DNA from: Artemia franciscana
Lineage: Eukaryota > Arthropoda > Branchiopoda > Anostraca > Artemiidae
Assembly: GCF_032884065.1 (NCBI RefSeq)
Contig: NC_088871.1
Span: 18,682,944 to 18,746,943 of the forward strand
DNA length: 64,000 bases
Direction: 5' to 3'
The position numbers and the translations under genes are program-made. The notes under the pieces are model-generated. The model was not told the DNA's origin and did no database searches. It saw only the letters and a program-made list of their open reading frames with translations. Shown here piece after piece: positions 1,788 to 63,200 of the stretch. Numbering within the stretch: the first letter of the stretch is position 1; each line of letters opens with the position of its first letter.

Positions 1788-1817
1788 GTGAGAATACTAA
1801 TAATAATGGATTATAAT

Positions 1818-3575: not shown

Positions 3576-3753
3576 ACACTATAAAAAAAATCCCTAAGAC
3601 GAAAACAAACCTGAAAAGCATAAATCACAAATTAAAAGCAGTTGCAGTTAAGAACAAGAGCTAAGAGCTCATATGGCACTTGTGACGAGGCAAGAAGAGC
3701 TAAGAGCCAAGAGCTCATATGGTATGAGCTCTAACAAAATTCTAAGAATCAAT

Positions 3754-9127: not shown

Positions 9128-9136
9128 GTCACTGCC

Positions 9137-18787: not shown

Positions 18788-18796
18788 GTCACTGCC

Positions 18797-29502: not shown

Positions 29503-29635
29503 ATTTAAGAATTAACGACGCTTCTTGACTACTAAGGTCCCTGCGTCGGCCCTGCAGTGTATTTCTGCAGCGTGATTCGATCTCTGGGTCCCGTATTACC
29601 AAGCTAAGGTCAAATCCACTGCGCCACCACAGGAC
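29503..29635 (-). mobile_element. tRNA-derived SINE (minus strand)
   Basis: Read on the minus strand: GTCCTGTGGTGGCGCAGTGG (A-box-like), TTGACCTTAGCTTGGTAATA, GATCGAATCACG (B-box-like), GGGCCGACGCAGGGACC, then AAGCGTCGTTAATTCTTAAA. The same unit occurs at 50865-51003 and 62882-63017. The flanks ATTAACTATTTTTTT and ATTAAGTATTTTGTG are a diverged target duplication. The paralogous position near 30480-30500 is empty. Confidence 0.8.
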
Positions 29636-33451: not shown

Positions 33452-33672
33452 TAATAGATTTCTACGTGAACATATATGTCTTAAATATCTTTAATGACGT
33501 CACCGTCATAGCAAAAATGACGACAAATAACTTCATGATTAAATATCTTTAATGACGTCTCCGTCATAGCAAAAATGACGACAACTAACTTCATGACGTC
33601 AGTCGACACAGAAACATGACGTCACCTGACAGACAGACATACAGATAGACAACTTATTTTTATATATATAGA

Positions 33673-36756: not shown

Positions 36757-37188
36757 GTTTTTTCCTTTTTTTCTTTTTAGTTTTTTATTGGTTTTTACCT
36801 TTATTTTAGCTTATTTTTCAGTTTTTTCCTTTTTTTTAGTTTTTTTTTATTTTTTATTTTTTTTAGTTTTTTACCTTTTTTTAGTTTTTTTAGTTTTTTT
36901 AGTTTTTTAGCTTTTTTACTTTTTTTATTAGTTTTTAGTTTTTTTTGTAGTTTTTGCCTTTTTTTAGTTTTTTCAGTTTTTTTTTTAGTTTTTTATTGGT
37001 TTTTACCTTTATAGTTTTTTTAGTTTTTTAGCTTTTTTATTTTTTTTATTAGTTTTTAGTTTTTTTTGTAGTTTTTGCCTTTTTTTAGTTTTTTCAGTTT
37101 TGACGTCACCTGATCCAGTTTTTTCAGGTGACGTCACCTGACACATCCATCCATCCATCCACAGACAACTTATTTTTATATATATAGA

Positions 37189-38944
37189 TTTAGAATATTC
37201 GGAAATACTTTTTCAATCAATTCATTTTTGGACGTCACTAAATTACAGAAATCAGCAGGTAGTTGTATACGTCCTGAAATTGAGTCTACTGGGAGCTTTC
37301 CTTTTCCAATTGCCAGCAATTGATCTGAAAATGTTTGACCAGAGTCCTCGTTTTGCAATCGGACACGCATATTTGTAGTTAATTTTAATATTTTTACGTG
37401 TGCCCATAAATTAGAATTTTTCAGGCAAGCATTCATTTCGTCTGCAGGAGTTGATCTAGGTATTATAGGTAATGTTTGCCTGAAATCTCCCGCAAGCAAG
37501 CTTGGTCTGATTCAGGCGGATATATAGAAAACGTTCTGATTCAATTTTAGCATACATATCAACGACAAATTGGTGAAACAATTCCCGGCATTTTAAGATA
37601 TAATTTTCTTCATCCTGCCGAATCATTAGTCTATAGGAATAATAATGCATTGCACTGCATTTCTTATTCATTTCTTTGTTAGTGGCTGGATTCATCAATT
37701 TAATATTAAAGTGATAGCCGTCGGCTCCATCCCAAAAAATGATAGGATATTGTAGGGCATCGTAGCATCGATGAGTTTCAGCAATTCTTAACAAAACTGA
37801 TCACCGACCATAACGATTGCCACTTCGTCGATAGTTGGAGCATTGTATCTACGCACATGTTGGCCAGGAGGCGTTTTGTCAGCGGAAATAACAATTTTTA
37901 TGCGTATCAGTAGGCATCAAATCGATGGCTGTTTTGAACAGATGCACTAAATTATTATTTTCGGGGAAAAGATGTTGCAATTGGGAAACGATTGTCCTTT
38001 CAACGTTGGGAGAAATGTCGCAACGTGCATTCAATTCAGAATTTCTATCACTGATGAAGTACAATTTTAAAAATGTATGATTCTCGCCTGAGAATGGTAG
38101 AAGGGACCCTGCTCTATGATAAATTTGCCCTTTTACTTTGAAAGTAGACATAAATTGATCTGGATTTTCGATTTGGGCTCCAAACGACGTCATTTGGAAA
38201 CATGAGTTGTATTTTCTGATTTTTGACAAAAAAACGCTTAGATTCTGACGTAGTTCCAGTAAGGAAAGTCTTCAATGGCTCTGGTGGTGCAGCCAATAGA
38301 GGAAGTTTAACTTTTCCTGAGGCGCAACACATTCCCATTGTTTCACCATTGAATTTCAAGGCCTTGCAATAGGGACAAATTTTAGACATTGTCCCGATTT
38401 GAACACATCTACTCAAGCTATAATCATCGACTGGGCTGTACCTGAATGCCAGGCGATAACTTTCAGGTTGCTCTGATTCCTCGGCACGCTTTCTTTTCTT
38501 ACTTTCTCTATCAGCAGCAAGCCTGATTTCTTGCTGTTCTTGTGATTCCTCGGCACGCTTTCTTTTCTTACTTTCTCTATCAGCAGCAAGCCTGATTTCT
38601 TGCTGTTCTTGTGATTCCTCGGCACGCCTTCTTTTTTCACTTTCTCTTTTAGCAGCAAGTCTGCTTTCGCGTTGCTCTGGTAGTTCCTCGGCACGCTTTC
38701 TGTTCTTTCTTTCTCTATCAGCCTCAAGCCTGTTTCCTTGCTTTTCTTTTGATTCCTCGGCACGCTTTCTGTTCTTTCGTTCTCTATCAGCCTCAAGCCT
38801 GTTTCCTTGCTGTTCTTTTGATTCCTCGGCACGCTTTCTTTTCTGACTTTCTCTATCAGCAGCAAGTTTTTTGGCATAGACTCTTTGAGCATCTTCATCG
38901 GCTTTTGCCATTGTAAGTTCATCAGTCATTTTAAACTTAAACAT
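37189..38944 (-). pseudogene. Rep/helicase remnant in Helitron A'
   Basis: The frames 38944-38114, 38229-37879, 37794-37456 and 37499-37189 repeat those of element A. Visible changes are LFPENNN for LFHENNN and YSYRLMIRQ for YSYRQMIRQ. The helicase part stops after FPNILN at the duplication junction. No catalytic motif remains. Confidence 0.78.
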
Positions 38945-39165
38945 TAATAGATTTCTACGTGAACATATATGTCTTAAATATCTTTAATGACGTCACCGTC
39001 ATAGCAAAAATGACGACAAATAACTTCATGATTAAATATCTTTAATGACGTCTCCGTCATAGCAAAAATGACGACAACTAACTTCATGACGTCAGTCGAC
39101 ACAGAAACATGACGTCACCTGACAGACAGACATACAGATAGACAACTTATTTTTATATATATAGA
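37189..39165 (-). mobile_element. Helitron A' (3'-truncated duplicate of A)
   Basis: Near-identical to 31696-33672. The 5' end is intact at 39165. On the 3' side it stops at TTTAGAATATTC, where B's 5' end begins. The same Rep-helicase fusion deletion and the same frameshifts show that it is a duplicate of A, not an independent insertion. Confidence 0.82.
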
Positions 39166-39182
39166 TCAAATTTTATACTATA

Positions 39183-41399
39183 CTAGCTGTTGGGGTGGCG
39201 CTTCGCGCCACCCCAACACCTAGTTGGTGGGGGCGCTTCGCGCCCCCCCAAGCCCCCCCGCGCGCGTAAGTCGTTACGCGCCATAATAGTTACGCGCCAT
39301 TGTAGTTGTGTCCCTATGTCCCACCTGTGAATATAGATAGATATATATATATATATGGTTTTAACTACGTAAAACTTGCGAATATACAACATTCTTTGCT
39401 GTCCCATTGTCTTTGCATATAAATAGATTGTCAGGTTTACCGACTCTTGAACATGCAACATATAATGGTCCATGGGAAAACAATCTGTATTCAGATCTAT
39501 ACCTCATGATTCTAATGATTGCCCTTGAGCTTTGTTGATGGTGATTGCTAATCGACCATTCCCTGTCCCGGTGTCCCGGTCGTCATTTACATCCCCCTGT
39601 TTCCTCCGGTGTCCCCGTTGTAGTTGTGTCCCTGTGTCCCGGTCGTCATTTATATTCCCTGTGTCCCGGTCGTCATTTGTATCCCGGTGTCCCGGTCTGT
39701 ATATACATTCGTTTTTTAGTTTTGTTTTTCTCCTTTATTTTTTTCCTTTTTTTTTCTTTTTTAGCTTATTTAGATTTTTAGATTTTTTAGTTTTTTTTAT
39801 TAGTTTTTAGTTTTTTTTTCTTTTTAGTTTTTTTGTCCCGGTCGTCATTTATATCCCCCTGTTTCCCCCGGTGTCCCCGTTGTAGTTGTGTCCCTGTGTC
39901 CCGGTCGTCATTTATATTCCCTGTGTCCCGGTCGTCATTTGTATCCCGGTGTACCGGTCTGTATATACATTTGTTTTTTAGTTTTGTTTTTCTCCTTTAT
40001 TTTTTTCCTTTTTTTTTCTTTTTTAGTTTATTTAGATTTTTAGATTTTTTAGTTTTTTTATTAGTTTTTAGTTTTTTTTTCTTTTTAGTTTTTTTGTAGT
40101 TTTTACCTTCTTTTTAGTTTTGTTAATTTTTTTTTTACTTTGTCCTGGTCGTCATTTATACTCCCTATGTCCCGGTGCTTTGTTGATTGCTAATCGAACA
40201 TTCCTTTTGTCCTGGTCGCTTTCTCTTTGAGTGTCGTCATTTATTTTTTTCGTTTTTAGTTCTTTTAGTTTTTACCTTTTTTAGTTTTTTTTAGTTTTTT
40301 AGATGAAAATTTTTTTTAGTTTTTTCCTTTTTTTCTTTTTAGTTTTTATTGGTTTTTACCTTTATGTTAGCTTATTTTTCAGTTTTTTCCTTTTTTTTTT
40401 AGTTTTTTTTTTTATTTTTTATTTTTTTTAGTTTTTTACCTTTTTTTAGTTTTTTTAGTTTTTTTAGTTTTTTTAGTTTTTTAGCTTTTTTACTTTTTTT
40501 ATTAGTTTTTAGTTTTTTTGTAGTTTTTGCCTTTTTTTAGTTTTTTCAGTTTTTTTTTTAGTTTTTTATTGGTTTTTACCTTTATTTTAGCTTATTTTTC
40601 AGTTTTTTCCTTTTTTTAGTTTTTTTTTAGTTTTTAGTTTTTTTAGTTTTTTACCTTTTTTAGTTTTTTTAGTTTTTTTAGTTTTTTAGCTTTTTTATTT
40701 TTTTTATTAGTTTTTAGTTTTTTTTGTAGTTTTTGCCTTTTTTTTAGTTTTTTTAGGTTTTTAGCTTTTTTATTAGTTTTTAGTTTTTTTTTGTAGTTTT
40801 TGCCTTTTTTTAGTTTGACAACTTATTTTTATATATATAGATAGTTTTTTTTTTTACTTATGTCCTGGTCGTCATTTATACTCCCTGTGTCCCGGTGCTT
40901 TGTTGATTGCTAATCGAACATTCCTTTTGTCCTGGTCGCTTTCTCTTTGAGTGTCGTCATTTATTAGTTTTTTCCTTTTTTTCTTTTTAGTTTTTTATTG
41001 GTTTTTACCTTTATTTTAGCTTATTTTTCAGTTTTTTCCTTTTTTTTAGTTTTTTTTTATTTTTTATTTTTTTTAGTTTTTTACCTTTTTTTAGTTTTTT
41101 TAGTTTTTTTAGTTTTTTAGCTTTTTTACTTTTTTTATTAGTTTTTAGTTTTTTTTTGTAGTTTTTGCCTTTTTTTAGTTTTTTCAGTTTTTTTTTTAGT
41201 TTTTTATTGGTTTTTACCTTTATAGTTTTTTTAGTTTTTTAGCTTTTTTATTTTTTTTATTAGTTTTTAGTTTTTTTTGTAGTTTTTGCCTTTTTTTAGT
41301 TTTTTCAGTTTTGACGTCACCTGATCCAGTTTTTTCAGGTGACGTCACCTGACACATCCATCCATCCATCCACAGACAACTTATTTTTATATATATAGA
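39183..41399 (-). mobile_element. Helitron B' (copy of B without the RT insertion)
   Basis: 3' CTAG at 39183-39186, 5' end at 41399. Same minisatellites as B. An internal TTTTTATATATATAGAT motif at about 40825-40845 looks like a second 5' end, implying that B itself is a fusion of two derivatives. It marks where the RT element entered the other copy. Confidence 0.75.
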
Positions 41400-42767: not shown

Positions 42768-43232
42768 TCACTTTGTGTCTCCACGGATACGGCGGGCAAG
42801 TTCCATATCTTTCGGCATAATAGTAGATCGCTTAGCATGTAAAGCGCACAAATTTGAATCATCAAATAACTTGACTAAATAAGCTTCACTCGCTTCTTGA
42901 AGGGCTCCAATGGCATCCGACTGAAAACGTAAATCTTGCTTTCCTACTTTTTGCGCTATTTCACGAACCATACGCTGAAATGGCAATTTCTGGATGAGTA
43001 AATCTGATGATTTTTGATACCTTCTAATCTCTCGTAGTGCAACTACTCCAGGCCTATAGCGATGTAATTTCTTCGTTCGCTTCTTCAAGGAGGCTTTTTT
43101 GTCTGTATCTTCTAGGAGGCTTTGTCCAGTACCTGGGAATCTCCTCTCAGATTGCTTTTTGTCTGAACCCTGCTTCCTATGTGAATAACCTTTAGCAGTA
43201 TTTTGCATTTCTTGTATTGTGTGGACTGACAT
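42768..43232 (-). CDS. Divergent histone H3 variant, centromeric-H3-like, left copy
   Basis: 154 residues, intronless. From [19 protein letters not shown] (residue 57) to ARRIRG it is a complete histone fold, close to H3. The preceding 56-residue tail lacks the ARTKQ and ARKS motifs of canonical H3 and is ~18 residues longer. Between EIAQ and DLRFQ there are five residues (KVGKQ) where canonical H3 has four, a one-residue insertion in loop 1. A rewritten tail and longer loop 1 are usual marks of CENP-A/cenH3, which wraps centromeric DNA and seeds the kinetochore. The fold is otherwise H3-like (F kept in LRFQ), so another H3 variant is possible. An AG acceptor-like CTATACAG lies 22 bp upstream of the ATG. 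Confidence 0.8.
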
Positions 43233-43637
43233 GTTTGTTTGATTTGTATGATCTGTATAGATAATGGTGGCACTCTGAAGTCAGATCTGTTCACACGTTA
43301 TGAAAAAAATCATATTCAAACTTTTTTGCTCATTTCTAAATAAAAATGTGATATTATGTACATTTAAAGCTTGAATTTAAGTTATTTTTGCTATTGTAAA
43401 GTTGAGAAGAGAAGAAAGGCTAAACTATTTTTTTTTTTTTCAATTCAGAAAGGGTAGGCGGATGACGTTGTATTATATGATTGAAAATCTGTGTTCCATT
43501 TTAAGAGGCGTATTTACGTTAATTCACTTTCTTTTTCATGAATTTATTATGAAAAAGGGATTGTTTCTAGGGAGATGAAGCCAGATATCCTAACATTATT
43601 TAAAAAGCCAATGAGAAATTAAATAAAAATAAAAAAA

Positions 43638-43940
43638 TTTTCAACTGAAAGCAAGGAGCAACATTAAAACTTAAAATGAACATTATTACTTATAAATTAC
43701 TGCATATATGAAGGAGTTTCTCCTGCTCAAAAACTCGCTATTGACGCAAAAGTCTGAATTTTGTCTCAATTCTTTAACTACGGCTTATTTTGAAAAATAT
43801 GTTTGAAGTAAGCTTTTTTCAAAGCGTTAAAAAACTTGTGGGAGCGAGATGTTGAGAAGGTTAATATAACTAACCTCAAATGCTTAATAGTTTATGTTGG
43901 CTTAAGTTTTAATGTTGCTCTTTACTTTCAGCTGAAAAAA
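43638..43940. repeat. Foldback repeat in left arm
   Basis: Diverged member of the GAGCGAGG family, with arms CTGAAAGCAAGGAGCAACAT and ATGTTGCTCTTTACTTTCAG. Duplicated inverted at 52090-52385. Confidence 0.65.
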
Positions 43941-45599
43941 CTTGTTTGTTTTATTTAGTTTCAACAAAGATCACCACCTGAAGATATTGTGTCCTTTAAA
44001 ATTGGAACATCAAATTTTTTTCGTCATCTTCTGTGGTGATTGTCTGTAACTTTGGTTGTTGTTCGGGTACTGTTTTATAGGCTGGCTATCCTAAGAAGCA
44101 GGGTAGGCTGGTTGTTCTCAAGCCTGTTTTGTGCAAAAAGTTGTCATTTTTCGTTTTTTGTGTTGTCTCTTTTTACACTTGATGCTAACTAGCTTCATCA
44201 AGTTTAAGTTTTCTGCCTCATAATCCCTCTCTGCCCGCTTAATCTCCTCAAGATGGCTTTATCTAGTATCTGGCTTGTTACAATTTGTGCCGTAGTCTAA
44301 GTTCTCTTTGAGTGAGGTAATGCACTTCTTTTTGCTTTGTGTCTGCTCCATCTCATGATAAAGATTTCTTATGAATATTAGAGAGGATACGACTCTTTGA
44401 AGTCTTGATTCAATAGGTCTTTGTTACCTTGCAAGGGCTTCCTTCAAACATATTTTTCCAAGTTACTTGCGTACCTGTTTGGACCCAGTGAATATAATAA
44501 GCTGGCTGTGCTTATTCTGGCATGGTTGGGCTAATCTTTTAAGCAGAAATTTTCTATCCCCCAAGGAGCTTCACTGCAACAGATATGTTATTTTCTACAA
44601 AATTTGATGTTATGTTGTTTCTTAAACACTGCTTTGCATTAAACATTGTAAGTTCCAGCATATGCCTTTTAAAATTTCTTGGAAGACCGGGAGCAGTCTT
44701 CGACAGGTCTATCAAAAGAAAGTTTTTGGAAAATCCAGTATAAAACTGTAAGATTATAAACTAAACCTAAACTAAGCCGTTCGCTTGCGAGTCGAGGTAC
44801 CTTATTGGTCACAAGTTTTCAACCTAAAATCTTGGTCATACTCAGAATCCAGTCGCATTTCCTATAGGCAAAGCTCGGACAAATTGAAGAAATTCATCCC
44901 CCCATCCAGTACAAATTTTTAAAAGATAATCACAAACAAGAAAAAGCCAATGTCTTTTTCTTAGTTGGATTAGTAAGAGGTGAGCCTAAGAGAATCATGC
45001 AGCTAAGTAAGTCAAATATGGTACAGTGCCCCATAAAAGCAACTTTTCAAAAGATGCGTGTATTATAGTAACTTTCAATTACTATATGCCATGGCTTGTT
45101 CTTTACTATGTTTTAGCTGTTTTGTTAACCATGATACCAATGAAACTCGTATAATCCCTTTTTATAATGAACTAAACTGAACCTAAATGCAAATCTTCGA
45201 TGGAAAATATCTTGGTTTAAGCCACTTTTCTTGTTTTTCAAGTCAATGGATTTTCAGTGTTGTTCAAGCAAAGGGACTGTAAGTTTTCTATATAGGGGCT
45301 TTGGTAGAGGTGGTTCTACTAGTATATTTCTTGTTTTGGTCTTATCAATGTTTTGCTTATGCCAGCACAATGTTTTACTAAAATGCAGATTTTTGGTTAT
45401 TTTATCCACGGCCTCCACTTCACACCTCATTAGTTCGCATTTTAATATTTTAACTATATTGAATGGGAGGATGAATTTCTGCCACAGGAGTCAGAGTAAA
45501 ACCAAGATTTAGGTTGATAACTTATGACCAATAATGTACCTTGAATCTCAAGTGAACGATTAACCTAAGTTTAATATGTTTAACATAATTAATAGTAAT

Positions 45600-45880
45600 T
45601 GAGTAATTACTATATGCCGTGGTTTGTTCTTTACTTTGTTTTGGCTATTTTTGCAACCATGATACTAATAAAACTCCTATAATCCCCTTTTATAATGAAC
45701 TAAACTGAACCTAAATCCAAATATTTGATGCAGAATATCGTGGTTTCAACCACTTTTCTTGTTTTTCAAGGCATTGGATTTTCAGTGTTGGTCAAGCAAA
45801 GGGACTGTAAGTTTTCTATATAGGGGCTTCGGTATAGGTGGTTTTACTAGTGAGTTTATTGTTTTGGTCTTATTAATTTT
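45600..45880. repeat. Extra partial copy of arm sequence
   Basis: Direct repeat of 45075-45350, sharing TACTATATGCC, TGGTTTGTTCTTTACT, TTTATAATGAACTAAACTGA and GCAAAGGGACTGTAAGTTTT. With the relic at 46064-46312 it suggests a third, degraded copy of the gene neighbourhood. Confidence 0.7.
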
Positions 45881-46063
45881 ACAATTTATTGAATATTGTA
45901 TTTCTTAGTATGGGGCGTAATAGTCTCTTACTTAGTTATTAACCAAGTGATGGTCTCTTACTTAGTTGTTAACTACTGTTGCAACCCTGATAGCTGCAGA
46001 GATAAACAAACTGAGAATCTCATCTAAGCGTGCTTTTAATCTGAACCTTTCCCTCTTAAATGT

Positions 46064-46312
46064 ACAACCTCTTACTGTATTTTGTATTTCTATCAATGCG
46101 TAGACTGACATCTTTGTTTGATTTGTATGATCCGTATACGTAATGATGGCACTTGGACGTCAGATTTGTTTATATGCTATGAAAAAATCGTATTAAAACT
46201 TTCCTGCTTATGTCTAAATATGAATTTGATATTATATACATTTAAAAGCTTGAAGTTGACTCTTTTTTTCCTACTGTAAAGTTGAAAAGAGAAGAAAGGC
46301 TAAAACAATTTT
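46064..46312 (-). pseudogene. Decayed 5' remnant of the H3-variant gene
   Basis: On the minus strand the sequence matches the 5' flank of both H3-variant genes (TTTGTTTGATTTGTATGATC on plus) and about the first 15 codons: MSVYALIEIQNTVRG against [15 protein letters not shown]. Homology ends before the histone fold. There are many substitutions, so it is much older than the two intact copies. Confidence 0.75.
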
Positions 46313-46319
46313 AGTTTTT

Positions 46320-46676
46320 CAAACAGTTCGTGGTAAAGAACTGTAGTAAGGAGCGACCCGGCTCAATAGTAACCAAAACTCTAAAAAATTGAATTTTGAT
46401 ATCAATAGCTACATCAAAAGAATCGTATTTTAATGCTGATTTTAAATATATAAGTTTCATCAAGTTTAGTCTTACCCATCAAAAGTTACGAGCCTGAGAA
46501 AATTTGCCTTATTTAAGAAAATAGGGGGAAACACCCCTTAAAAGTCGTAGAATCTTAACGAAAATCACACCATCAGATTCAGCGTATCAGAGAACCCTAC
46601 TGTAGACGTTTCAAGCTCCTATCTACAAAAATGTGGAATTTTGTATTTTTTGCCAGAAGACAAATCACGGGTGCGT

Positions 46677-46719
<43 letters not shown>

Positions 46720-47015
46720 CTTTCCGGGGGTAATCGTATCGACCAAGTGGTCCTAGAATGTTGCAAGAGGGCTCATTCTAACGGAAATGAAAAGTTCTAG
46801 TGCCCTTTTTAAGTGACCAAAAAAATTGGAGGGCATCTAGGCCCCCTCCCACGCTCATTTTTTCCCAAAGTCAACGGATCAAAATTTTGAGATAGCTATT
46901 TTGTTCAACATAGTCGAAAACCATAATAACTATGTCTTTGGGTATGACTTACTCCCCCAAAATCCCTGGGGGAGGGGCTGCAAGTTACAAACTTTGACCA
47001 GTGTCAAGGAGGCAC
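46320..47015. repeat. Long interspersed repeat, left part
   Basis: Contains the family blocks seen at 5640-6060, a long T-run (46678-46719) and a unit like satellite 2 (GAGATAGCTATTTTGTTC). It appears to continue at 48812 after an interrupting segment, since both sides contain consecutive parts of what looks like one repeat. Confidence 0.55.
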
Positions 47016-48811
47016 ACTCGTGCCTCTATAAATAGGCGACCCACGACAATGTTAAGCGATCTTCGGTTCCAGTGGTCGCAGAGGGATGGGGAGGGATGCA
47101 TTTCGTAGCCCGAGCTCCAACTAAGAAACCTGCAAAATTTCATCCCCCTCCAACTTTTCCTTCATGGGGAAAATCTGGCCGAAAGTTTCAACCCGTCAAC
47201 CCCAGCCCCCCTTTAACGTTGTCCGATCGGGCTGAAATTCACAAGTTAAGGTCCCCTAGGGCCCAGGAGCTTATCCGCGAAATTTCAGCTCGATCCGATA
47301 ACTCCTTCCCTGTTTTCCAGAAACCACGCATAGCCACTTAAAATTAATGTTCTTTGTTTTTCTAGACGCCTACAGGTCACATCCGACATCGGATCTGGGT
47401 GTACGAAGACTCATTCGATGCGGAATTCTCCGAGTAATTTTCCTGGAAAGTTTCGTAGGAAAATCTTAACCCCCCGAAAGTTTCGACCCCCCCCCCCCCC
47501 AACCCCACCCCTCCTTTTAACGTTGTCCGATCGGGCTGAAATTCACAAGTTAAGGTCCCCTACGGCCCAGGAGCTTATCCGCGAAATTTCAGCTCGATCC
47601 GATAACTCCTTCCCTGTTTTCCAGAAACCACGCATTAGCTATTTAATTAACGCATTTCTCTCCATAAGAACCCATGTTAATTTGAAATTTTTAAAAGCTA
47701 TTGAGAAGTTATATTTACACACATGCAAGTGTTTAGCTCAGTCGGTAGAGCGTGGGATTTTTAATCCTCTGGTCAAGGGTTCAAGTCCCTTACGGGCGGT
47801 TTTTTTTTCACAACATCAAAAAAATTTTGATAACACCTGGACAGCTTATCATTTGAGAGATAACAGAATATTAGCGTCTTATGAGCAAAAGAAACATTTC
47901 GGTCATTCTATCTATTTTTTTCTATTTTATACAATGATTTAAAAGCGGGGGGGGGGTTCCTCTCCTAATTCCTGTACGAGGAGTACAGGAATTATTAAAT
48001 TACATCCACCATGGATTGTAGAAAAACGTACAGAATTAATATGAAAAAAAATTAAACCTGTACAAAAGAGTCTTTAAAAGCGGGGGGTTTGCCTCTCCTA
48101 ATAGTCTTCTTATAGTCCTAAGCACCTGGACAGCTTATCAATTGAGAGATAACAGAATATTAGCTTCTTATGAGCAAAAGAAACATTTCGGTCATTCTAT
48201 CTATTTTTTTTTCTATTTTATACAATGATTTAAAAGCGGGGGGGGGCGGCAGCCACCCAAGTTCCTCTCCTAATTCCTGTACGAGGAGTACAGGAATTAT
48301 TAAATTACATCCACCATGGATTGTAGAAAAACGTACAGAAATAATATGAAAAAAACTTCGTTTTCTTAAAGAGTTAAAGAGGCTGCGTCCCAAAGTCGAA
48401 CCTTAAAACGTGCAGGAATTAGAAGAGGCAGTTGGGGGGGCTGCCGCCCCCCAAACCCCCAGCTTTTAAAGACTCTTTTGTACAGGTTTTTTTTGTGGGG
48501 GGACTTCATTGTTACTAATTACTAGTTTCGGCGCAATGGTTCTCCCGTCCTCTTGTGTTTAACATTTTTCGAAGTTATTCCATTATTCATTCATTTCAAT
48601 TTTTTGTTAATTAAAAGAGGGCCTTTTCGAAGCCAAGAGCGGGGGGTTAGCAAAAAAACAAAAAACCTGTACAAAAGAGTCTTTAAAAGCTGGGGGTTTG
48701 GGGGGCGGCAGCCCCCCAACTGCCTCTTCTAATTCCTGTACGTTTTAAGGTTCGACTTTGGGACGCAGCCTCTTTAACTCTTTAAGAAAACGAAGTTTTT
48801 TTCATATTATT
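47016..48811. repeat. Segment interrupting the interspersed repeat, internally duplicated
   Basis: Holds two copies of a block with TTGTCCGATCGGGCTGAAAT and CGAAATTTCAGCTCGATCCG (47212-47335 and 47516-47635) and a tRNA-like pseudogene. It also has two direct copies of a ~230 bp block with ACCTGGACAGCTTATCA (47835-48050 and 48125-48350) and an inverted pair (48340-48492, 48660-48812). The open frames 47072-47341 and 47418-47942 cross these repeats and are not considered genes. Confidence 0.55.
47727..47799 (+). tRNA. tRNA-Lys(UUU)-like pseudogene with lost acceptor stem
   Basis: D arm with A box (TAGCTCAGTCGGTAGAGC, 47734-47751), anticodon loop TTTTTAA with anticodon TTT at 47760-47762, a T arm AAGGG-TTCAAGT-CCCTT with B box, then ACGGGCG and a T-run that could terminate Pol III. 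The 5' acceptor strand (AAGTGTT) does not pair with the 3' strand and the anticodon stem has one mismatch. It is therefore a 5'-broken tRNA-Lys copy or the head of a tRNA-derived SINE, not a functional tRNA. Confidence 0.6.
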
Positions 48812-48812
48812 T
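48340..48812. repeat. Inverted repeat pair with ~150 bp arms
   Basis: 48340-48492 and 48660-48812 are near-perfect reverse complements (AAATAATATGAAAAAAACTT outside, AAAGACTCTTTTGTACAGGT inside) around ~165 bp. It resembles a foldback or MITE-like element. The centre has no reading frame of note. Confidence 0.75.
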
Positions 48813-49021
48813 ACATATAGTAATGGTTATTGGGAAGTGTACAGACGTTTTCAGGGGGATTTTATTTTGTTTGGGGGTGGGGCTGAGGGGAGAGGGCTAT
48901 GTTGGAGGATCTTTCCTTGGAGGAATATGTCATGGGGGAAGAAAAATTCAATGAAAAGGGCGCAGGATTATCTAGCATTACTATAAGAAAACAATGAAAA
49001 ATAAACATGAAAACGTTTTTC
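48812..49021. repeat. Interspersed repeat, right part
   Basis: Contains ATAGTAATGGTTATTGGGAA and GTACAGACGTTTTCAGGGGG, the reverse complement of sequence at about 12840-13010 in the DOLK intron. It is a shared dispersed repeat without coding content. Confidence 0.6.
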
Positions 49022-49290
49022 AAATGAAAGGAAGGAGTAGCATTTAAACTTAAAACGAACAGAGATTATTACGCATATGAGGGGTTCTAAAAATACTTTA
49101 GCATAAAGAGCGAGGTATTTAGGAGGAGATATATACCTCGCTCTTTATGCTAAAGTATTTTTAGTAATTTCAACTATTTATTCTACGGCCTTTCTGATTC
49201 AGGGGTCATTCTTAAAGAATTGGGACAGAACTTACGATTTAGTGTAAAGAGCGAGGTATTAACGAGGGTACAAACCACCTCGTATACATA
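49022..49290. repeat. Foldback repeat, GAGCGAGG family
   Basis: Carries ATTTTTAGTAATTTCAACTA in the centre and repeated inverted AAAGAGCGAGGTATT segments, same family as 12564-12736. Its left half has itself been duplicated inverted (AGCGAGGTATTTAGGAGG and TACCTCGCTCTTTATGC). Confidence 0.65.
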
Positions 49291-49608
49291 ATAAAAATAT
49301 AAGATTATGAAAGTTTGTTACGTAAGTTAATTCTTAAGTTACGTATATTTTTTACTAATAAAAACGTTCGTTAAAAATTAAAAGTTCTAGTTGCCTTTTT
49401 AAGTAACCAAAAAATTGGAGGGCAACTAGGCCTCCTTCTCCACCCCTTATTTCTTAAAATCGTCTGATCAAAACTAAGAGAAAGCCATTTAGCCAAAAAA
49501 AGAATTAATATACAAATTTCATTTTCATAATTTATGTGCGGAGAGCCAAAACCAAACATGCATTAATTCAAAAACGTTCAGAAATTAAATAAAAAAATAA
49601 TTTTTTTA

Positions 49609-49853
49609 GCTGAAAGTAAGGAGCGACATTAAAACTTAAAACGAACAGAAATTACTCCGTATATGAAATGGGTTGTCCCCTCCGCAATCCCTCGCTCTTT
49701 ACGCTAAAGTTTGACTCTTTGCCACAATTCTACTTTTTAAAACAATTAAAAACTTTAACGTAAAGAGCGAGGGATTGCGGAGGGGACAACCCATTTCATA
49801 TACGGAGTAATTTCTGTTCGTTTTAAGTTTTAATGTCGCTCCTTACTTTCAAC
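49609..49853. repeat. Foldback repeat, best-preserved copy
   Basis: Arms of ~110 bp (GTAAGGAGCGACATTAAAAC ... CCCTCGCTCTTTACGCTAAA and reverse complement) around a ~35 bp centre. The near-perfect pairing points to recent origin or gene conversion between arms. Confidence 0.8.
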
Positions 49854-50864
49854 TAAAACATTTTTTTTTATTTAATACTCAGAAAGGGTTAGTGAATGAC
49901 GTTGTAGTATATGATTTAAAATCTGTGTTGTATTTTAACAGGCGTATTTAGGTCAGTCCACTTTATTTTTCTTGAATTTATGATCAAAAGCGATTTTTTT
50001 CCGTTGAGGTGAGGCCTGATATCCTTGCATTATTTAAAAACCAATGAAAAACTTGGAGCAGTCTTCGACAGGTCTATCAAAAGGACGTTTTTGGGAAAAT
50101 CCGGTGTTACAAACTACAAACTTACAACGAGAATCTGGAAGATGCATTTAGACGGCATTTTAGTAAAACAACTAAATCTAAACAGTGCAAAAAACTTAGG
50201 TTAATCGTTCACTCGAGATTCCAGGTACCTTATTGGTCAGAAGTTATCAAACTAAAATCTTGGTCATACTCTGAATCCTGTGGCAGAAATTCATCCCCCC
50301 ATCCAATATAGTTAAAATAGTTAAAATGTTAAAATACGAACTAATGAGGTTTGAAGTAAAGGTCGTGGATAAAATTAACGAGAATCTGGAAGATGCATTT
50401 AGACGGCATTTTAGTAAAACATTGTACTGGCTTGTTAATAAAACGAGAGCAGTTACAGTAGTTAACAACTAAATAAGATACTATCACGCCCCATACTAAG
50501 AAACAAATTATTCTATAACTTTTAAAATTGGTCAGACCAAAACAAGAAATACACTAGTAGAACCACCTCTACCGAAGCCCCTATATAGAAAACTTACAGT
50601 CCCTTTGCTTGAACAACACTGAAAATCCAATGCCTTGAAAAACAAGAAAAGTGGTTGAAACCAAGATATTTTCCATCGAAGATTTGCATTTAGGTTCTGT
50701 TTAGTTCATTATATAAGGGGATTATATGAGTTTCATTGGTATCATGGTTAACAAAACAGCTAAAACACAGTAAAGAACAAACCACGGCATATAGTAATTG
50801 AAAGTTACTATAATACACGCATCTTTTGAAAAGTTGCTTTTATGGGGCACTGTACCATATTTGA

Positions 50865-51003
50865 GTCCTGTGGTGGCGCAGTGGGTTTGACCTTAGCTTG
50901 GTAATACGGGGCCCAGAGATGGAACCATGCTGCAGGAATGCACTGCAGGGCCGACGCAGGGACCTTAGTAGTCAATAAGCGTCGTTAATCCGATACAATA
51001 CAA
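50865..51003 (+). mobile_element. tRNA-derived SINE with 14 bp target duplication
   Basis: Full unit from GTCCTGTGGTGGCGCAGTGG to GCGTCGTTAATC plus a CGATACAATACAA tail. It is flanked by TGTACCATATTTGA at 50851-50864 and 51004-51017. The matching place in the left arm (45012-45025) has one copy of the target and no SINE. Confidence 0.9.
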
Positions 51004-52089
51004 TGTACCATATTTGACTTACTTAGCTGCATGATTCTCTTAGGCTCGCCTCTTACTAATCCAACTAATAGAAAGACATTGGCTTTTTCCTGTTTGTAAT
51101 TATCTTTTAAAAATTCGTATTGGATGGGGGGATGAATTTCTTCAATTTGTCCGAGCATTGCCTATAGGAAATGCGACTGGATTCTGAGTATGACCAAGAT
51201 TTTAGGTTGAAAACTTGTGACCAATAAGGTACCTCGACTCGCAAACGAACGGCTTAGTTTAGGTTTAGTTTATAATCTTACAGTTTTATACTGGATTTTC
51301 CAAAAACTTTCTTTTGATAGACCTGTCGAAGACTGCTACCGGTCTTCCAAGAAATTTTAAAAGGCATATGCTGGAACTTACAATGTTTAATGTAAAGCAG
51401 TGTTTAAGAAACAACATGACATCAAATTTTGTAGAAAATAACATATCTGTTGCAGTGAAGCTCCTTGGGGGATAGAAAATTTCTGCTTAAAAGATTAGCC
51501 CAACCATGCCAGAATAAGCACAGCCAGCTTATTATATTCACTGGGTCCAAACAGGTACGCAAGTAACTTGGAAAAATATGTTTGAAGGAAGCCCTTGCAA
51601 GGTAACAAAGACTTATTGAATCAAGACTTCAAAGAGTCGTATCCTCTCTAATATTCATAAGAAATCTTTATCATGAGATGGAGCAGACACAAAGCAAAAA
51701 GAAGTGCATTACCTCACTCAAAGAGAACTTAGACTACGGCACAAATTGTAACAAGCCAGATACTAGATAAAGCCATCTTGAGGAGATTAAGCGGGCAGAG
51801 AGGGATTATGAGGCAGAAAACTTAAACTTGATGAAGCTAGTTAGCATCAAGTGTAAAAAGACACAACACAAAAAACGAAAAATGACAACTTTTTGCACAA
51901 AACAGGCTTGAGAACAACCAGCCTACCCTGCTTCTTAGGATAGCCAGCCTATAAAACAGTACCCGAACAACAACCAAAGTTAAAGACAATCACCACAGAA
52001 GATGACGAAAAAAATTTGATGTTCCAATTTTAAAGGACACAATATCTTCAGGTGGTGATCTTTGTTGAAAATAAATAAAACAAGCAAGT

Positions 52090-52385
52090 GTTTTCAGCTG
52101 AAAGTAAAGAGCAACATTAAAACTTAAGCCAACATAAACTATTAAGCATTTGAGGTTAGTTACATTAACCTTCTCAACATCTCGCTCCCACAAGTTTTTT
52201 AACACTTTGAACAAAGCTTACTTCAAACATATTTTTCAAAATAAGCCGTAGTTAAAGAATTGAGACAAAATTTAGACTTTTGCGTCAATAGCGAGTTTTT
52301 GAGCAGGAGAAACTCCTTCATATATGTTGTATTTTATAAGTAATAATTTTCATTTTAAGTTTTAATGTTGCTCCTTGCTTTCAGT
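52090..52385. repeat. Foldback repeat in right arm
   Basis: Inverted counterpart of 43638-43940, with outer sequence CTGAAAGTAAAGAGCAACAT. Confidence 0.62.
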
Positions 52386-52793
52386 TGAAAAAACTTTTAT
52401 TTTTATTTAATTTCTCATTGGCTTTTTAAATAATGCCAGGATATCTGGCTTCATCTCCTTAGAAACAATCCCTTTTTCATAATAAATTCATGAAAAAGAA
52501 AGTGAATTAACTTAAATACGCCTCTTAAAATGGAACACAGATTTTCAATCATATAATACAACGTCATCCACCTACCCTTTCTGAATTGAAAAAAAAAATA
52601 GTTTAGCCTTTTTTCTCTTCTCGACTTTACAATAGCAAAAATAACTTAAATTCAAGCTTTAAATGTACATAATATCACATTTTTATTTAGAAATGAGCAA
52701 AAAAGTTTGAATATGATTTTTTTCATAACGTGTGAACAGATCTGACTTCAGAGTGCCAACATTATCTTTACAGATCATACAAATCAAACAAAC

Positions 52794-53258
52794 ATGTCAG
52801 TCCACACAATACAAGAAATGCAAAATACTGCTAAAGGTAATACACATAGGAAGCAGGGTTCAGACAAAAAGCAATCTGAGAGGAGATTCCCAGGGACTGG
52901 ACAAAGCCTCCTAGAAGATACAGACGAAAAAGCCTCCTTGAAGAAGCGAACGAAGAAATTACATCGCTATAGGCCTGGAGTAGTTGCACTACGAGAGATT
53001 AGAAGGTATCAAAAATCATCAGATTTACTCATCCAGAAATTGCCATTTCAGCGTATGGTTCGTGAAATAGCGCAAAAAGTGGGAAAGCAAGATTTACGTT
53101 TTCAGTCGGATGCCATTGGAGCCCTTCAAGAAGCGAGTGAAGCTTATTTAGTCAAGTTATTTGATGATTCGAATTTGTGCGCTATACATGCTAAGCGATC
53201 TACTATTATGCCTAAAGATATGGAACTTGCCCGCCGTATCCGTGGTGACACAAAGTGA
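52794..53258 (+). CDS. Divergent histone H3 variant, centromeric-H3-like, right copy
   Basis: 154 residues, intact, intronless, 98 percent identical to 42768-43232. By eye I count nine base differences, five silent and four changing residues 16, 17, 45 and 131 (Y/N, S/T, K/E, L/I). Three of the four are in the tail, and the fold and the one-residue loop-1 insertion are kept. I start at the ATG after CAAATCAAACAAAC, conserved in both copies. Downstream there is no histone-mRNA stem-loop, and an AATAAA lies at about 53426, after the end of the arm, so it is probably a polyadenylated variant gene. It diverges from the left copy, with ATGs 9.6 kb apart. Confidence 0.82.
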
Positions 53259-53349
53259 GGCAGCTCATATGAGAAAAATGAGGGTAAAAACGCGCAAAAC
53301 AAACTACTACCATTATGCTAAGACGATATTGCATATTTCTAAAGATTAA

Positions 53350-53999
53350 ACATCCTCATAATTCCAGCTGTTAACAATATCTAGTTTAGACTTTAAAGCA
53401 TGGCTTAAAATTATATTTTCAAATCAATAAACAATACAAAATATCCTTTTTTTTCGCGTCATTTAACCCTTTAAGTGGGTTTTTCGTCTTGGATTACAAA
53501 TATAAAGACCTAATGTTGGGAAATCTGTAACCAAGATTGGTTTTAGATATCTAGATTTTATATAGCCTATAAATCGGGAAATCCTGTCCAAACCAAGAGA
53601 AAAATATACTGTTGTTTTGTCACATGGTGTTCCATCCCTTATAGTGGGAATTACATATTGCGCTGTCTATCATAAGACTTTTATTTCATCGCCAGTGAAA
53701 GAGATATGTTCCCAGTTTCCGTTTTTACACCATTGTAATTTCATCATTTCGGGCCCCTCAACTTCTTTAACCAGTACATATTTTTCTAAGCCCAGAAATG
53801 CAGTCGGACGGGATGGTGGCAATTCGAAAATGTATTCCACGATTTAGGGTCTCTGCATCTCAATTGACCATTTAAAACGGTTATTTTTGACTAGCTGGCT
53901 CGTGTCATTGCTTTATGCAATACATCATTAGCATCTAAAATTGATATGCATCTAGATATCTCATCCTAATACATGTTTATTTGCTTTTTCCTTCTCCAT
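53350..53999. other. Unassigned sequence after the right arm
   Basis: AT-rich, with AATAAA near 53426 that may serve the H3-variant transcript. The short frame at 53617-53847 shows no family resemblance. Confidence 0.45.
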
Positions 54000-54300
54000 T
54001 GCAAGAAGTAAACTAAAGAGGTTCTCCATTGCAAGACAAAATTAAAGAAAAAGAAAAAAATGAAAAAAAACTAAAAAAAGAAAAAGACTAGAAGAGAAAA
54101 AATAAGAAGTGAAAAAAAAAGAAAAAATTAAAATAAAATAGGTAAAAAACTAAAAAGAACAAAAAAAAGAAAAAGAAAAAAAAACTAAAAAAAGAATAAA
54201 CTAAAAAAATAAAAAAACTAAAGAAGAAAATACTCAAAAAAGAAAAAACCTAAAAAATAAAAAAAAAATATGACGTAAAAAAAAATCAAATAAAACAATG
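54000..54300. repeat. A-rich CTAAAAAA-type minisatellite
   Basis: Degenerate AAAAACTAAAAAAG-like repeats, the other-strand form of the TTTTTTAG tract in Helitron B. A second block runs 54780-55330. Confidence 0.7.
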
Positions 54301-54319
54301 GAAAAAGCAATGCGTGTAT

Positions 54320-54770
54320 AATTTTGCTACAATGTCACCAAAAAGGGAACACCAGAGCAGCGCAAAACCAGGCTTGTGGCTCAAAGAGAAAGAGCCACAT
54401 TAGGAATGTCCAATTACGTCATCAATTCGATCCAAAAATTAAATAGCGTTGCTGGGACCCAGAACACAAGGGACAATGAGAATCCATATATAGAAGCCTG
54501 CCGCGTGCTGTGCTGGGGCCCAGCGGCAAAGCCGCCGGGACCCAGCACTGTCTGGGGTTAGAACATAAGGGACAATGAGAATCCATATATAGAAGCCTGC
54601 CACGTGTCATGCTTGGGCCCGACGCCGAGACACAGCAGTGCCTGCGGTTAGAACACAAGGGACAATGAGAATCCAAATCCATATATAGAAGTCTGCCGCG
54701 TGCCGTGCTGGGGCCAAATGTAGTGTCTGTCCTTCTGTCCGTCCGTCTGTCTATCACTAAGTATGACGTC
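54320..54770 (+). mobile_element. Helitron-related fragment with ~90 bp tandem repeats
   Basis: Starts with a remnant of Helitron N-terminal coding sequence. The parallel fragment at 59822 reads TPEQRKTKLVVQRERARLGM. Three tandem copies follow of a ~90 bp unit with ACAAGGGACAATGAGAATCC, ATATATAGAAGCCTGCC and GCTGGGGCC. It is followed by GTCCGTCCGTCTGTC and TGACGTCA-like sequence. No complete ends are visible. Confidence 0.55.
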
Positions 54771-54779
54771 AATATATAA

Positions 54780-55330
54780 AAAAAACTAACTAAAAAAATG
54801 AAAAGAATTAAAAACTGTCTTCTATATAAAAAATGAAAAAAAGACGAAAATGAAAAAAAAGAAAAAAACTAAAAATAAAAATAAAAAAAAAGAAAAACTA
54901 AAATATAGAAAACAACTAAAAAAGAAAAAAGTAAAGAGGAAACTAAAAAAAAAGGTAAAAAAAACTAAAAATAAGAAAAACTAAAAAAGAAAAAAAGAAA
55001 AAACTAAAAAAAAAACAAAACGACAAACACAAAACTAAAGAAGAAGGAAAAAAACTAATAAAGACTAAAAGAGACAAAATAAAAAATAAAAAAATAAAAA
55101 ATTAAAAAAATTAAATAGGTAAAAACTAAAAAAGAAAAAAAAAGAAAAAGAAAAAAAAAGAAAAAACTAAAAAGAAAAAAAAAACAGAAAAAAAGGAAAC
55201 AAAACAAAAAAAGAGAAAACTAAAAAAGAAAAAACTAAAAAATAAAAAAAAATAAAATATGACGTAAAAAACATGACAAATAAAAAAATAAAACTGAAAA
55301 AAAGAAAAAACTAAAAAAAGAAAAAAACTA
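54780..55330. repeat. A-rich low-complexity tract
   Basis: AAAAACTAAAAAAGAAAA-type sequence with no reading frame of interest. After it, to 55440, is a remnant of Helitron N-terminal coding sequence (AACCAGGCTTGCAGCAAATA). Confidence 0.65.
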
Positions 55331-55441
55331 TAAATTACGTCCGGTTCACAACGCGAAACCAGGCTTGCAGCAAATAGAGATAGTAAAAAAGAAGGTGTGT
55401 CGCTGTATTACAAAAGCAATGCGTGTATAATTATCCTACAA

Positions 55442-56198
55442 CTAGCTGTTGGGGTGACACTTCGCGCCACCCCAACACCTAGTTGGTGGGGGAACTTCGC
55501 GCCCCCCAGGCTCCCCCCCGCGTGCGTAAGTCGTTACGCGCGATATTAGTTACGCGCCATTGTAGTTGTGTCCCTGTGTCCCACCTGTGAATATAGATAG
55601 ATATATATATATCTATCTATATAAAAATAAGTTGTCTGTCTGTCTGTGGATGGATCAGGTGACGTCACCTGAAAAAACTGGATCAGGTGACGTCAAAACT
55701 GAAAAAACTAAAAAAAGGCAAAAACTACAAAAAAAACTAAAAACTAATAAAAAAAATAAAAAAGCTAAAAAACTAAAAAAACTAAAAAAAGGCAAAAACT
55801 ACAAAAAAAACTAAAAACTAATAAAAAAACTTAAAAATTAAAAAAACTAAAAAAAGGCAAAAACTACAAAAAAAACTAAAAACTAATAAAAAAAATAAAA
55901 AAGCTAAAAAACTAAAAAAACTAAAAAAACTAAAAAAAGGTAAAAAACTAAAAAAACTAAAAACTAAAAAAAAATAAAAAAAAGGAAAAAACTGAAAAAT
56001 AAGCTAAAATAAAGGTAAAAACCAATAAAAAACTAAAAAAAAAACTGAAAAAACTAAAAAAAGGCAAAAACTACAAAAAAAAACTAAAAACTAATAAAAA
56101 AAGTAAAAAAGCTAAAAAACTAAAAAAACTAAAAAAACTAAAAAAAGGTAAAAAACTAAAAAAAATAAAAAATAAAAAAAAACTAAAAAAAAGGAAAA

Positions 56199-56268
<70 letters not shown>

Positions 56269-60282: not shown

Positions 60283-61576
60283 TTGAAGCGGGTCGATGAA
60301 TCACAAGAGCAACCTGAAAATAATCGCCTGGCATTCAGGCACAGCCCAGTCGATGATTATAGCTTGAGCAGGTGTGTTCAAATCGGGACTAAGTCTAAAA
60401 TTTGTCCCTATTGCAAGGCCTTGAAATTTACTGGTGAAACAATGGGAATGTGTTGCGCCTCAGAAAAAGTTAAACTTCCTCAACTGGCTGCACCACCAGA
60501 GCCATTGAAGACATTGCTTACTGGAACTACGTCAGAATCTAAGCGTTATTTTGTTTTTTTTATCAAACATCAGAAAATATAAATCATGTTTCCAAATGAT
60601 GTCGTTTGGTGCCCAAATTGAAAATCAAGATCAATTTATGCCTACTTTCAAAGTAAACAGGCAAATTTATCATAGAGCAGGGTCCCTTCTACCATTCTCA
60701 GGTGAGAATCATCAATTTTTACAACTGTGCTTCATCATTGATACCAATTCTGAATTGAATGCACGTAGCGAAATTTCTCCCGACGTTGATAGGACTATCG
60801 TTTCCCAATTGTATCATCTTTTCCACGAAAAATAATGATTTAGTGCGCCTGTTCAAAACAGCAATCGATTTGATACCTACTGATAAGCATTAAATTGTTA
60901 TTTCCGCTGACAAAACGCCTACTGGCGAACATATGCATAGTTACAATGCTCCAACTATCGACGAAGTGGCAACTGCTTTCTTTTCGTTATGTCAAAATGA
61001 TTCTTTTGCAAAAAACAACTGCTGTTTATTGAAGTACCTTCGTATTACACGTGGAATGCTAAAAAGAAATCATTTGAACGTCGAAAACAGAGTAAGTCAG
61101 TCGACGGCCAACCTACCATCTTCAAAGATACCGCGATAGGAAGACTCTACACCATTCACCCCTATCAACATGAATGCTTCTTTTTCTGCCTGCTTTGGGT
61201 GGATGTACCCGGTCCGACGTCCTTCGAGTATTTGCGAACTGTAAACGGTACTATACATGACACTTACCGTAGTGCATGCCAAGCTCTGAATTTATTGGAG
61301 AATGACCAACACTGGGATAGCTGCTTCAATGACGCGTGCGAAACGTCAACTCCAAGTCAAATTTGTGCATTGTTTGGAATCATACTAACATCGTGCTCTC
61401 TTTCAGCTCCAATAGAGTTATGGGAGAAATATAAATCGAAAATGGCCAAGGATATACTGCATCGAAAACGGTTAGAGATGTCATATATGACCTTTGATTT
61501 TACGTCAGATATTTATAACTACACTTTTTCTTATTATTCAAGATTTGTGCGTATGCATGGCAAACAAACCTCTTGA
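60283..61576 (+). pseudogene. Rep N-terminus and linker in Helitron G
   Basis: Frames in order: SQEQPENNRLAFRHSPVDDY with CPYCKALKFTGETMGMCC (60283-60582), then QMMSFGAQIENQDQF to LFHEK (60551-60835), a broken stretch to 60970, AFFSLCQNDSF and WNAKKKSFERRK pieces, and VDVPGPTSFEYLRTVNGTIH to MTFDFTSDIY (61199-61576). Between 60975 and 60980 the HUH domain is deleted. Several frameshifts and stops make it non-functional. Confidence 0.78.
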
Positions 61577-63200
61577 GGATTTGGGAATGCCTTCACCTAA
61601 TCGTAACGCTGCTGTTTCGACACGTGTAGAATTGGATCGTGAACAAAGTTACGACACGAGTAATCTATTGTCGTATGTACAAAATAATGTTTCTAAGTTA
61701 ACATCTGAGCAAAAAGACATTTATGATAAGATAATGCATTGCGTAGATAACCACGTTGGAGAAATCTTTTTTTTGGATGCGCCAGGAGATACTGGTAAAT
61801 CTTTTGTCTTTTTGATGCTTGCATCAATTCGTTCAAAAAATGACATAGCGTTGGCAATTGCGTCGTCCGGAATAGCCGCAACGTTGCTGCCTGGTGGAAG
61901 AACTGCTCATTCCGCTATGAAATTGCCTCTGAATTTGCATTCTACAGAAACTCTCATGTGCAATATTTCCAAATCATCTGGGATGGGTAAAGTATTGCAG
62001 CAATACAAACTTATTATTTGGGACGAGTGCACAATGGCACAAAAAAAATCGCTCGAGGCTCTGGAACAATCATTACGAGATTTGCGAGGAAATTCGAAAC
62101 CCTTTGGCAGCACATTAATATTGTCCTTTGGGAGATTTCAGGCAAACATTACCCATGATACCTAGATCAACCCCTGCGGACGAAATGAATGCTTGCCTGA
62201 AAAATTCTAATTTATGGGCACACGTAAAGACATTAAAATTAACTATAAATATGCGTGTTCGATTACAAAACAATGACTCTGGTGAAATATTGTTAGATCA
62301 ATTGCTGGCAATTGGAGACAGAAAGCTCCCAGTAGACTCAATTTCAGGACGTATACAACTGCCTGCTGAATTGTGTAATTTAGTGACGTCCAAAAATGAA
62401 TTGGTTGAAAAGGTATTTCCGAATATTCTAACCAATTCTAAAAATCATAAATGGCTCACTAAACGAGCGATATGGGCAGCCAAGAATAAAGACGTCCACG
62501 CGATCAACAATATTATTTTGACGAAGATTCGAGACCAGGAAGTAATTTACAAGTCAGTCGACACAGTTCTGGAACCAAATGAAGCGTGTAATTATCCATC
62601 TGAATTTTTAAATTTCCTGGATCTCCCAGGGTTTCGACCACACGTGCTACAACTAAAAATAGGCGTCCCAATAATGCTGTTACGAAATATTAACCCACCA
62701 AAGCTTTGCAATGGCACACGACTTGCTGTAAAAAAAAAAAAATGGAAAACGTAATAGAGGCAACAGTCTTGACAGGGCCTTTTAAGGGTGAGGCTGTTCT
62801 TATTCCTCGTATTCCCATGATTTTAACGGATCTGCCTTTTCAATTTAAAAGATTGCAATTCCCAATTCGATTAGCATTTGCGTCCTATGGTGGCGCAGTG
62901 GGTTTGACCTTAGCTTGGTAATACGGGACCCAAAGATCAAATCATGCTGCAGTAATGCACTGCAGGGCCGACGCAGGGACCTGAGTAGTCAAGAAGCGTC
63001 GTTAATCTGATACAATACGATTAGCATTTGCAATCACCATCAACTAAGCTCAAGGGCAATCATTAGAAAAATGCGGTATAGGATCTTAATACAGATTGTT
63101 TTCCCATGGACAATTGTATGTTGCATGTTCGAGGGTCGGTAAACCTGACAATCGATTTATATGCACACACAATTGGATAGCGAAGAATGTTGTATATTCA
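61557..63200 (+). pseudogene. Pif1-like helicase in Helitron G, SINE-interrupted
   Basis: MANKPLEDLGMPSPNRNAAV, then a damaged Walker A, GDTGKS in place of GGTGKT, and an intact Walker B IIWDECTM. A frameshift near 62130 falls in LL(A)GDFRQ, and the frame continues as FRQTLPMIPRSTPADEMNAC to LCNGTRLAVKKKKWKT. An A-run frameshift at about 62730 precedes the GPFKGEAVLIPRIPM part. The SINE enters after PIRLAFA, and the rest (ITINKAQGQSLEKC) follows at about 63032. It is the mirror-strand relative of copies 1 and 2 and clearly dead. Confidence 0.82.
62882..63017 (+). mobile_element. tRNA-derived SINE inside helicase, 14 bp target duplication
   Basis: From GTCCTATGGTGGCGCAGTGG to GCGTCGTTAATC plus a TGATACAATA tail. 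CGATTAGCATTTGC is repeated at 62868-62881 and 63018-63031, and outside the SINE it continues the helicase coding sequence exactly. Confidence 0.92.

Follow-up and report, generated by a model that had tools for sequence, protein, structure and literature searches.

A stretch of 64,000 nucleotides from the Artemia franciscana genome (contig NC_088871.1, positions 18,682,944 to 18,746,943 of the forward strand; hereafter the window, whose own numbering is used throughout) contains two genes for an unusual histone H3-like protein. They lie head to head on opposite strands, with their starts facing inward, and each is part of one arm of a long inverted repeat (Table 1). This duplicated, intact and odd H3 pair is real: as the first-pass annotation of the DNA had stated, both genes are where it placed them and both encode 154 amino acids in an uninterrupted open reading frame (ORF). 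The same annotation took them for genes of a centromeric H3 (cenH3).

The arms measure about 2.7-2.8 kb and enclose a spacer of 5.17 kb (45353-50523). Over 2355 aligned bases, their main block shows 97.6% identity and 50 mismatches, and a 341-bp extension is 95.3% identical; arms this long and this alike cannot be due to chance. The earlier figures of about 3 kb for the arms and about 4.6 kb between them depart from these measurements and fit only if a nested repeat of 89% identity (45605-45943 and 50461-50799) is included. On the outer side, the similarity ends 94 bp (left) and 92 bp (right) past the stop codons, just beyond an ATTAAA signal, and BLAST finds no similarity between the sequences that follow (about 41.4-42.7 and 53.4-55.6 kb). 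The 14-bp sequence on either side of the insert in the right arm is present as a single copy in the left arm. Relatives of this insert occur within the window at 62876-63021 and 29511-29635, and it appears to resemble a short interspersed nuclear element.

Table 1. Coordinates of the H3-like gene pair and associated features within the window
Feature	Positions	Strand	Remarks
Left H3-like gene copy	42768-43232	-	154 codons, uninterrupted ORF
Right H3-like gene copy	52794-53258	+	154 codons, uninterrupted ORF
Left inverted arm	42674-45352		gene, ~94 bp beyond stop and ~2.1 kb upstream of start
Right inverted arm	50524-53350		carries the 139-bp insert
Insert in right arm	50865-51003		139 bp; flanked by 14-bp repeats (50851-50864, 51004-51017); not in left arm
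Third, decayed gene copy	46011-46322	-	gene start (roughly 100 bp) with its 5′ flank; frame-breaking indels, rest lost
Low-divergence stretch of arms	51419-52068		650 bp with 3 differences, on the upstream side of the gene; width chosen post hoc
Two 26-bp tandem units	52903-52954	+	80% alike; in the tail coding region, where the tail exceeds that of H3

The histone 3′ stem-loop has no match in the window at the gathering threshold; a laxer search, confined to the region after the right copy (53200-53700), found none up to E 10. The ATTAAA signals follow the two stops at 86 and 88 nt. Some 20 bp ahead of the ATG is an AG acceptor-like sequence, TTTACAG in the right copy and TATACAG in the left, as a gene with an intron in the 5′ untranslated region would have. 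The gene is best read as not being of the replication-coupled type.

Fold, tail and phylogenetic position of the protein

Both copies match the Pfam Histone family (PF00125), with E-values of 8.2e-42 for the left copy (first Met omitted) and 4.1e-42 for the right copy. A PDB search matched 178 sequences, of which the best are H3.3 (E 5e-47); none of the best 60 of the 178 is named centromeric. Over the fold, taken from the N-helix EIR to the C-terminus, 69 of 86 residues (80%) are identical to H3.3 and 67 of 86 to H3.2. The cenH3 reference is a small set of six rows, in which the Arabidopsis row is provisional and the chicken CATD chimera has an H3 N-helix; the matches are 48/87 for human, 56/87 for Cse4, 56/85 for Cnp1, 34/87 for CID, 45/87 for Arabidopsis and 48/84 for the chimera. 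H3.3 matches the same rows, in this order, at 54/86, 61/86, 61/84, 36/86, 46/86 and 55/83, and is thus closer to cenH3 than the Artemia protein in all six comparisons. Identity to H3.3 is 36-61 of 84-86 positions (42-73%) among the five natural cenH3s. Passages of the published accounts give cenH3 fold identities of 51% in Tribolium (PMC7598501), 44% in Paramecium (PMC4770206) and about 50% in general (PMC3156773).

A longer loop 1, a divergent tail and the absence of Q69, F85 and T108 are given as marks of cenH3 in the parts of the literature consulted (PMC4359364, PMC7598501; PMC4359364 prints 118 for the last); these residues are Q68, F84 and T107 in the numbering without Met used here. Loop 1 has one extra residue relative to H3, in agreement with the first-pass annotation, and is longer by two to six residues in the six cenH3 rows. 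Q68 is kept, where the cenH3 rows have S, A, S, S, A and I, and F84 is also kept, where they have W, W, W, V, W and W. The C. elegans HCP-3 core, in the provisional sequence used here, also has F84, so the rule is not absolute. A change of F84 to W is mentioned for one cenH3 in a passage of PMC3156773. At nine positions all six H3 rows agree and none of the six cenH3 rows carries the H3 residue; the Artemia protein keeps that residue at five of them (Q68, A75, Q76, K79 and F84). In the H3.3 chaperone motif, I89 and G90 are kept and A87 is replaced by D; D77K and V117S are further changes relative to H3.3. By eye, the alignment shows the N-helix to be kept, together with C110, H113, D123, L126 and I130, which we take to be H3-H3 contact residues. 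An AlphaFold2 model from eight sequences (mean pLDDT 50.7, pTM 0.26) is too poor for comparing folds. With Q68 and F84 kept, a loop 1 longer by only one residue and a fold 80% identical to H3.3, the label of a centromeric-H3-like protein is not sustained.

The tail consists of 56 residues, as against 40 in H3.3, and its net charge is +6 (right) or +8 (left), as against +13. Neither ARKS motifs nor a canonical tail of the ARTKQTARKS type were found in it, nor was SPKK in the tail of the right copy. The best local score of tail residues 1-52 against the H3 tail (RKQ...P.TG) is 31, which 1058 of 20,000 shuffles reach; for the left-copy tail the score is 30, reached by 1468 of 20,000 shuffles. At a lower gap cost the count is 773 of 20,000. 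The trace of an H3 tail is thus borderline and, at the level of sequence, compatible both with kinship and with its absence. The tail is highly divergent, with no clear H3-tail similarity, as is usual in cenH3. Its earlier description as wholly non-canonical is nearly right, the borderline trace being the qualification.

Two trees were built. The first had 15 rows, including six cenH3s, six ordinary H3s and L007:3001-3300, an H3-like protein that is strongly diverged (54% identity to the query) and comes from a 36.9-kb contig listed as a metagenome-assembled genome (MAG) of Pirellulales. The second was made without CID and L007, the two longest rows, and with the provisional HCP-3 core added. 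The Artemia protein is the sister of H3.3 in both, with weak support (66/79 and 72/79, respectively), and the first also disfavours grouping it with the six cenH3s (approximately unbiased test, p-AU 0.034). Most inner branches are unsupported, and the trees may be said to lean weakly to H3.3 and to settle nothing. A firm place within replication-coupled H3 or H3.3 had been named beforehand as a result that would refute cenH3; the place found is beside H3.3, but it is not firm.

Another H3-like gene (L008:3001-3356) is split between two frames; its loop 1 is lengthened and F84 is replaced by C. Its contig is listed as a Muriicola MAG, and the gene may be the cenH3 of a eukaryote on a wrongly binned contig. 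The Artemia protein has one distant H3-like match among viral contigs and none in the phage collection.

Divergence of the copies and history of the locus

The coding regions differ at nine positions, five synonymous (codons 34, 96, 126, 140 and 151) and four replacement (Y16N, S17T, K45E and L131I, written from the left to the right copy), with three of the four replacements in the tail; the codon comparison reproduces the first-pass count exactly. For 362 nonsynonymous and 100 synonymous sites, pN is 0.011 and pS is 0.050 (Fisher p 0.026), and a one-sided binomial test for a replacement deficit gives p 0.027 for the whole gene and p 0.010 for the fold. The overall deficit arises because the histone fold contributes it, only one of its five changes being a replacement and four being silent (p 0.009); the tail has one silent and three replacement differences (pN/pS 0.78). 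Taken whole, the coding region is as divergent as the flanks (9/465 versus 41/1882, p 0.86), and the rate at replacement sites is not significantly below that of the flanks (p 0.22). Constraint is likely on the fold and unproven on the tail. The purifying selection proposed earlier is supported by the replacement deficit in the fold, but not by the tail or by the divergence of the coding region as a whole.

The third copy in the spacer differs by 17% in the flank (35/207) and 23% in the coding part (23/99), and the gene has been copied here at least two times, once long ago and once recently. A retrocopy origin of the pair is rejected, for the arm ends have no poly(A) tract and 2.1 kb of upstream DNA was copied along. 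Gene conversion holding the arms identical overall is likewise rejected on account of the mismatches in the main block, and a run of 249 bp, the longest free of differences, is within expectation (p 0.17). In scans for windows poor in differences with widths of 400, 500, 600, 650 and 700 bp, counts as low as the observed were seen in 43, 24, 11, 1 and 15 of 1000 random draws, respectively. The stretch 51419-52068 is unusually similar, a suggestive hint of gene conversion and no more. Of the idea that the palindrome would allow gene conversion there thus remains this single tract, picked out post hoc, in arms that otherwise differ by about 2%.

Several other features lie in the arms and the spacer. 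Three ORF pieces at 51302-51908 (+), partly within the low-divergence tract, resemble coding remnants but match no Pfam family significantly. Four upstream ORF pieces in the arms reach at best E 0.081 in Pfam, short of significance, and one of them is also without a PDB match. A tRNA-like stretch in the spacer (47733-47792, +) scores 47.9 bits with the Rfam tRNA model, yet ARAGORN predicts no tRNA there.

The surroundings are rich in mobile elements. Helitron stretches lie at 7120-10687, 16750-20337, 31062-33490 and 37176-38983, all on the minus strand and to the left of the H3 genes, and at 61001-62754 on the plus strand to the right. By Pfam, their ORFs carry a PIF1 helicase in the three that were scanned and Helitron_like_N in one. 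These ORFs are nearly repeated, about 9.6 kb apart in the first two stretches and about 5.5 kb apart in the next two, as if whole blocks had been duplicated. Long TTTTTAGTT-type arrays (40250-41312 and 54044-56203) are complementary across the H3 locus and adjoin Helitron sequence. A hAT dimerisation domain is found at 3123-3578 (-; E 6.4e-8), and a reverse-transcriptase fragment at 13774-14136 (+) is under the Pfam cut-off (25 of 29.6 bits). An ORF at 1412-1816 (+), with the end GVGDTAAGLVG...RWPG, has no Pfam match at 0.01 and no PDB match; its end may be like part of dolichol kinase.

Origin and possible role of the gene pair

On balance we favour, with modest confidence, a lineage-specific H3 variant that came from an H3.3-type gene, acquired a rebuilt tail and, through a recent inverted duplication at the locus, was kept as two seemingly functional copies. 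It is like H3.3 in 69 of the 86 fold positions, in I89 and G90, in the N-helix and in having no stem-loop that could be found here. It is unlike H3.3 in the longer, rebuilt tail without ARKS, in the extra residue of loop 1 and in A87D, D77K, G102K, V117S and other changes.

A variant of this kind would have a polyadenylated mRNA not tied to S phase. HIRA and DAXX are chaperones of H3.3, and HJURP and CAL1 serve the centromere; the protein would be deposited by HIRA/DAXX-like chaperones reading G90 and not by the HJURP/CAL1 route. Its nucleosomes would be unable to carry marks at K9 and K27, and the loop 1 patch would be more basic through D77K; they may therefore act as unmarked or specially packed chromatin. 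Loop 1, altered and longer by one residue beside K79, would change the nucleosome face. The germline is the most plausible site of use, and is proposed because diverged H3s changed around K79 are known there, as described in part of the account of Oikopleura H3t (PMC3156773). These too are lineage-peculiar H3 variants with changes around K79 on the nucleosome face; they are, however, described as male-specific isoforms near H3, some with a stem-loop, whereas the tail of the Artemia protein is rebuilt. The pair would have arisen by copying of the gene together with some 2.1 kb upstream of it; an older copy decayed nearby.

Several points weigh against an H3.3-derived variant. The tree support is weak, and a clade with the six cenH3s has a p-AU of 0.165 in the second set; moreover, grouping with only the six ordinary H3s is itself disfavoured in the 15-row tree (p-AU 0.049; 0.48 in the second set). 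Four of the nine separating positions are changed (77, 80, 124 and 133), and the new residue at 77, 80 and 124 occurs also in some cenH3. T107, which is retained in two of the six cenH3 rows, is S in both copies; this change resembles cenH3, as do the lengthened loop 1 and a tail unlike that of H3, and G102K alters a position changed also in four of the six cenH3 rows. Furthermore, the H3.3 parent is presumed, and germline use and the choice of chaperone are themselves suppositions.

As an unlikely alternative we keep the view that the gene is the organism's own centromeric H3 of the CENP-A/Cid type, duplicated, whose tail would bind inner-kinetochore proteins and whose loop 1 and helix 2 would form the targeting domain; the features that point to it are T107S, the change at position 102, the tail and loop 1. 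The concentration of replacements in the tail, the lack of a histone stem-loop in the window and the F84 of the provisional HCP-3 would suit it. So would the recurrent duplication of cenH3 in animals, with at least four duplications in Drosophila and at least three in mosquitoes (PMC8200288) and at least ten in Caenorhabditis (PMC9577544), as reported in passages of these papers. The first-pass remark that duplicated cenH3 genes are uncommon is outdated by these passages, and since such genes are no longer thought rare in animals, duplication alone would be unexceptional even for a cenH3. There, as here, an H3-variant gene was copied repeatedly and the tail changes most, but those genes are cenH3 by tree or localisation; a search of PMC9577544 for wording on inverted or head-to-head arrangement or gene conversion found none. 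CENP-A, Cid, Cse4 and Cnp1 share with the Artemia protein the non-H3 tail, the longer loop 1 and the changes at 107 and 102. Against their kinship stand the retained Q68, F84, A75, Q76 and K79, a loop 1 shorter than in all six cenH3s, the lean of the trees to H3.3 and a fold much nearer H3 than that of the five natural cenH3s or those in the publications cited above.

Still less likely are two recent, as yet unbroken copies of an unneeded H3 variant that drift in a transposon-rich region and have no present function. A coding region as diverged as its flanks, a tail without constraint, a sister copy already decayed and the nearby Helitron, hAT and reverse-transcriptase sequences fit such drift, but the fold shows a replacement deficit (p about 0.01), and neither copy has a stop or an indel although the arms carry indels.

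That two alleles of one locus were joined head to head in the assembly is improbable: 97.6% identity is compatible with allelic divergence, and complementarity of 98% recurs farther out (41219-41360 and 55647-55788, within TTTTAGTT-type arrays), but the close arms end shortly past the stops with dissimilar flanks beyond, one arm alone has the insert with its flanking repeat, and the spacer holds the third, older copy and nested repeats. Equally improbable is a second, independent invention of cenH3, in which the lineage dispensed with its ancestral cenH3, or relegated it to a minor role, and built a new one out of H3.3, with a rebuilt tail and an extra residue in loop 1, the palindromic copies now starting to specialise; if true, it would put an early stage of cenH3 evolution on view.

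A divergent tail and a longer loop 1 are insufficient for calling a protein cenH3, and if this one were truly centromeric, it would be an unusually H3-like cenH3. H3 is among the most conserved proteins, and the gene is a natural experiment on the limits of its change: with 80% of the H3.3 fold kept, the modifiable tail discarded and one residue added to loop 1, it may display the first steps from H3.3 to a special-purpose histone.

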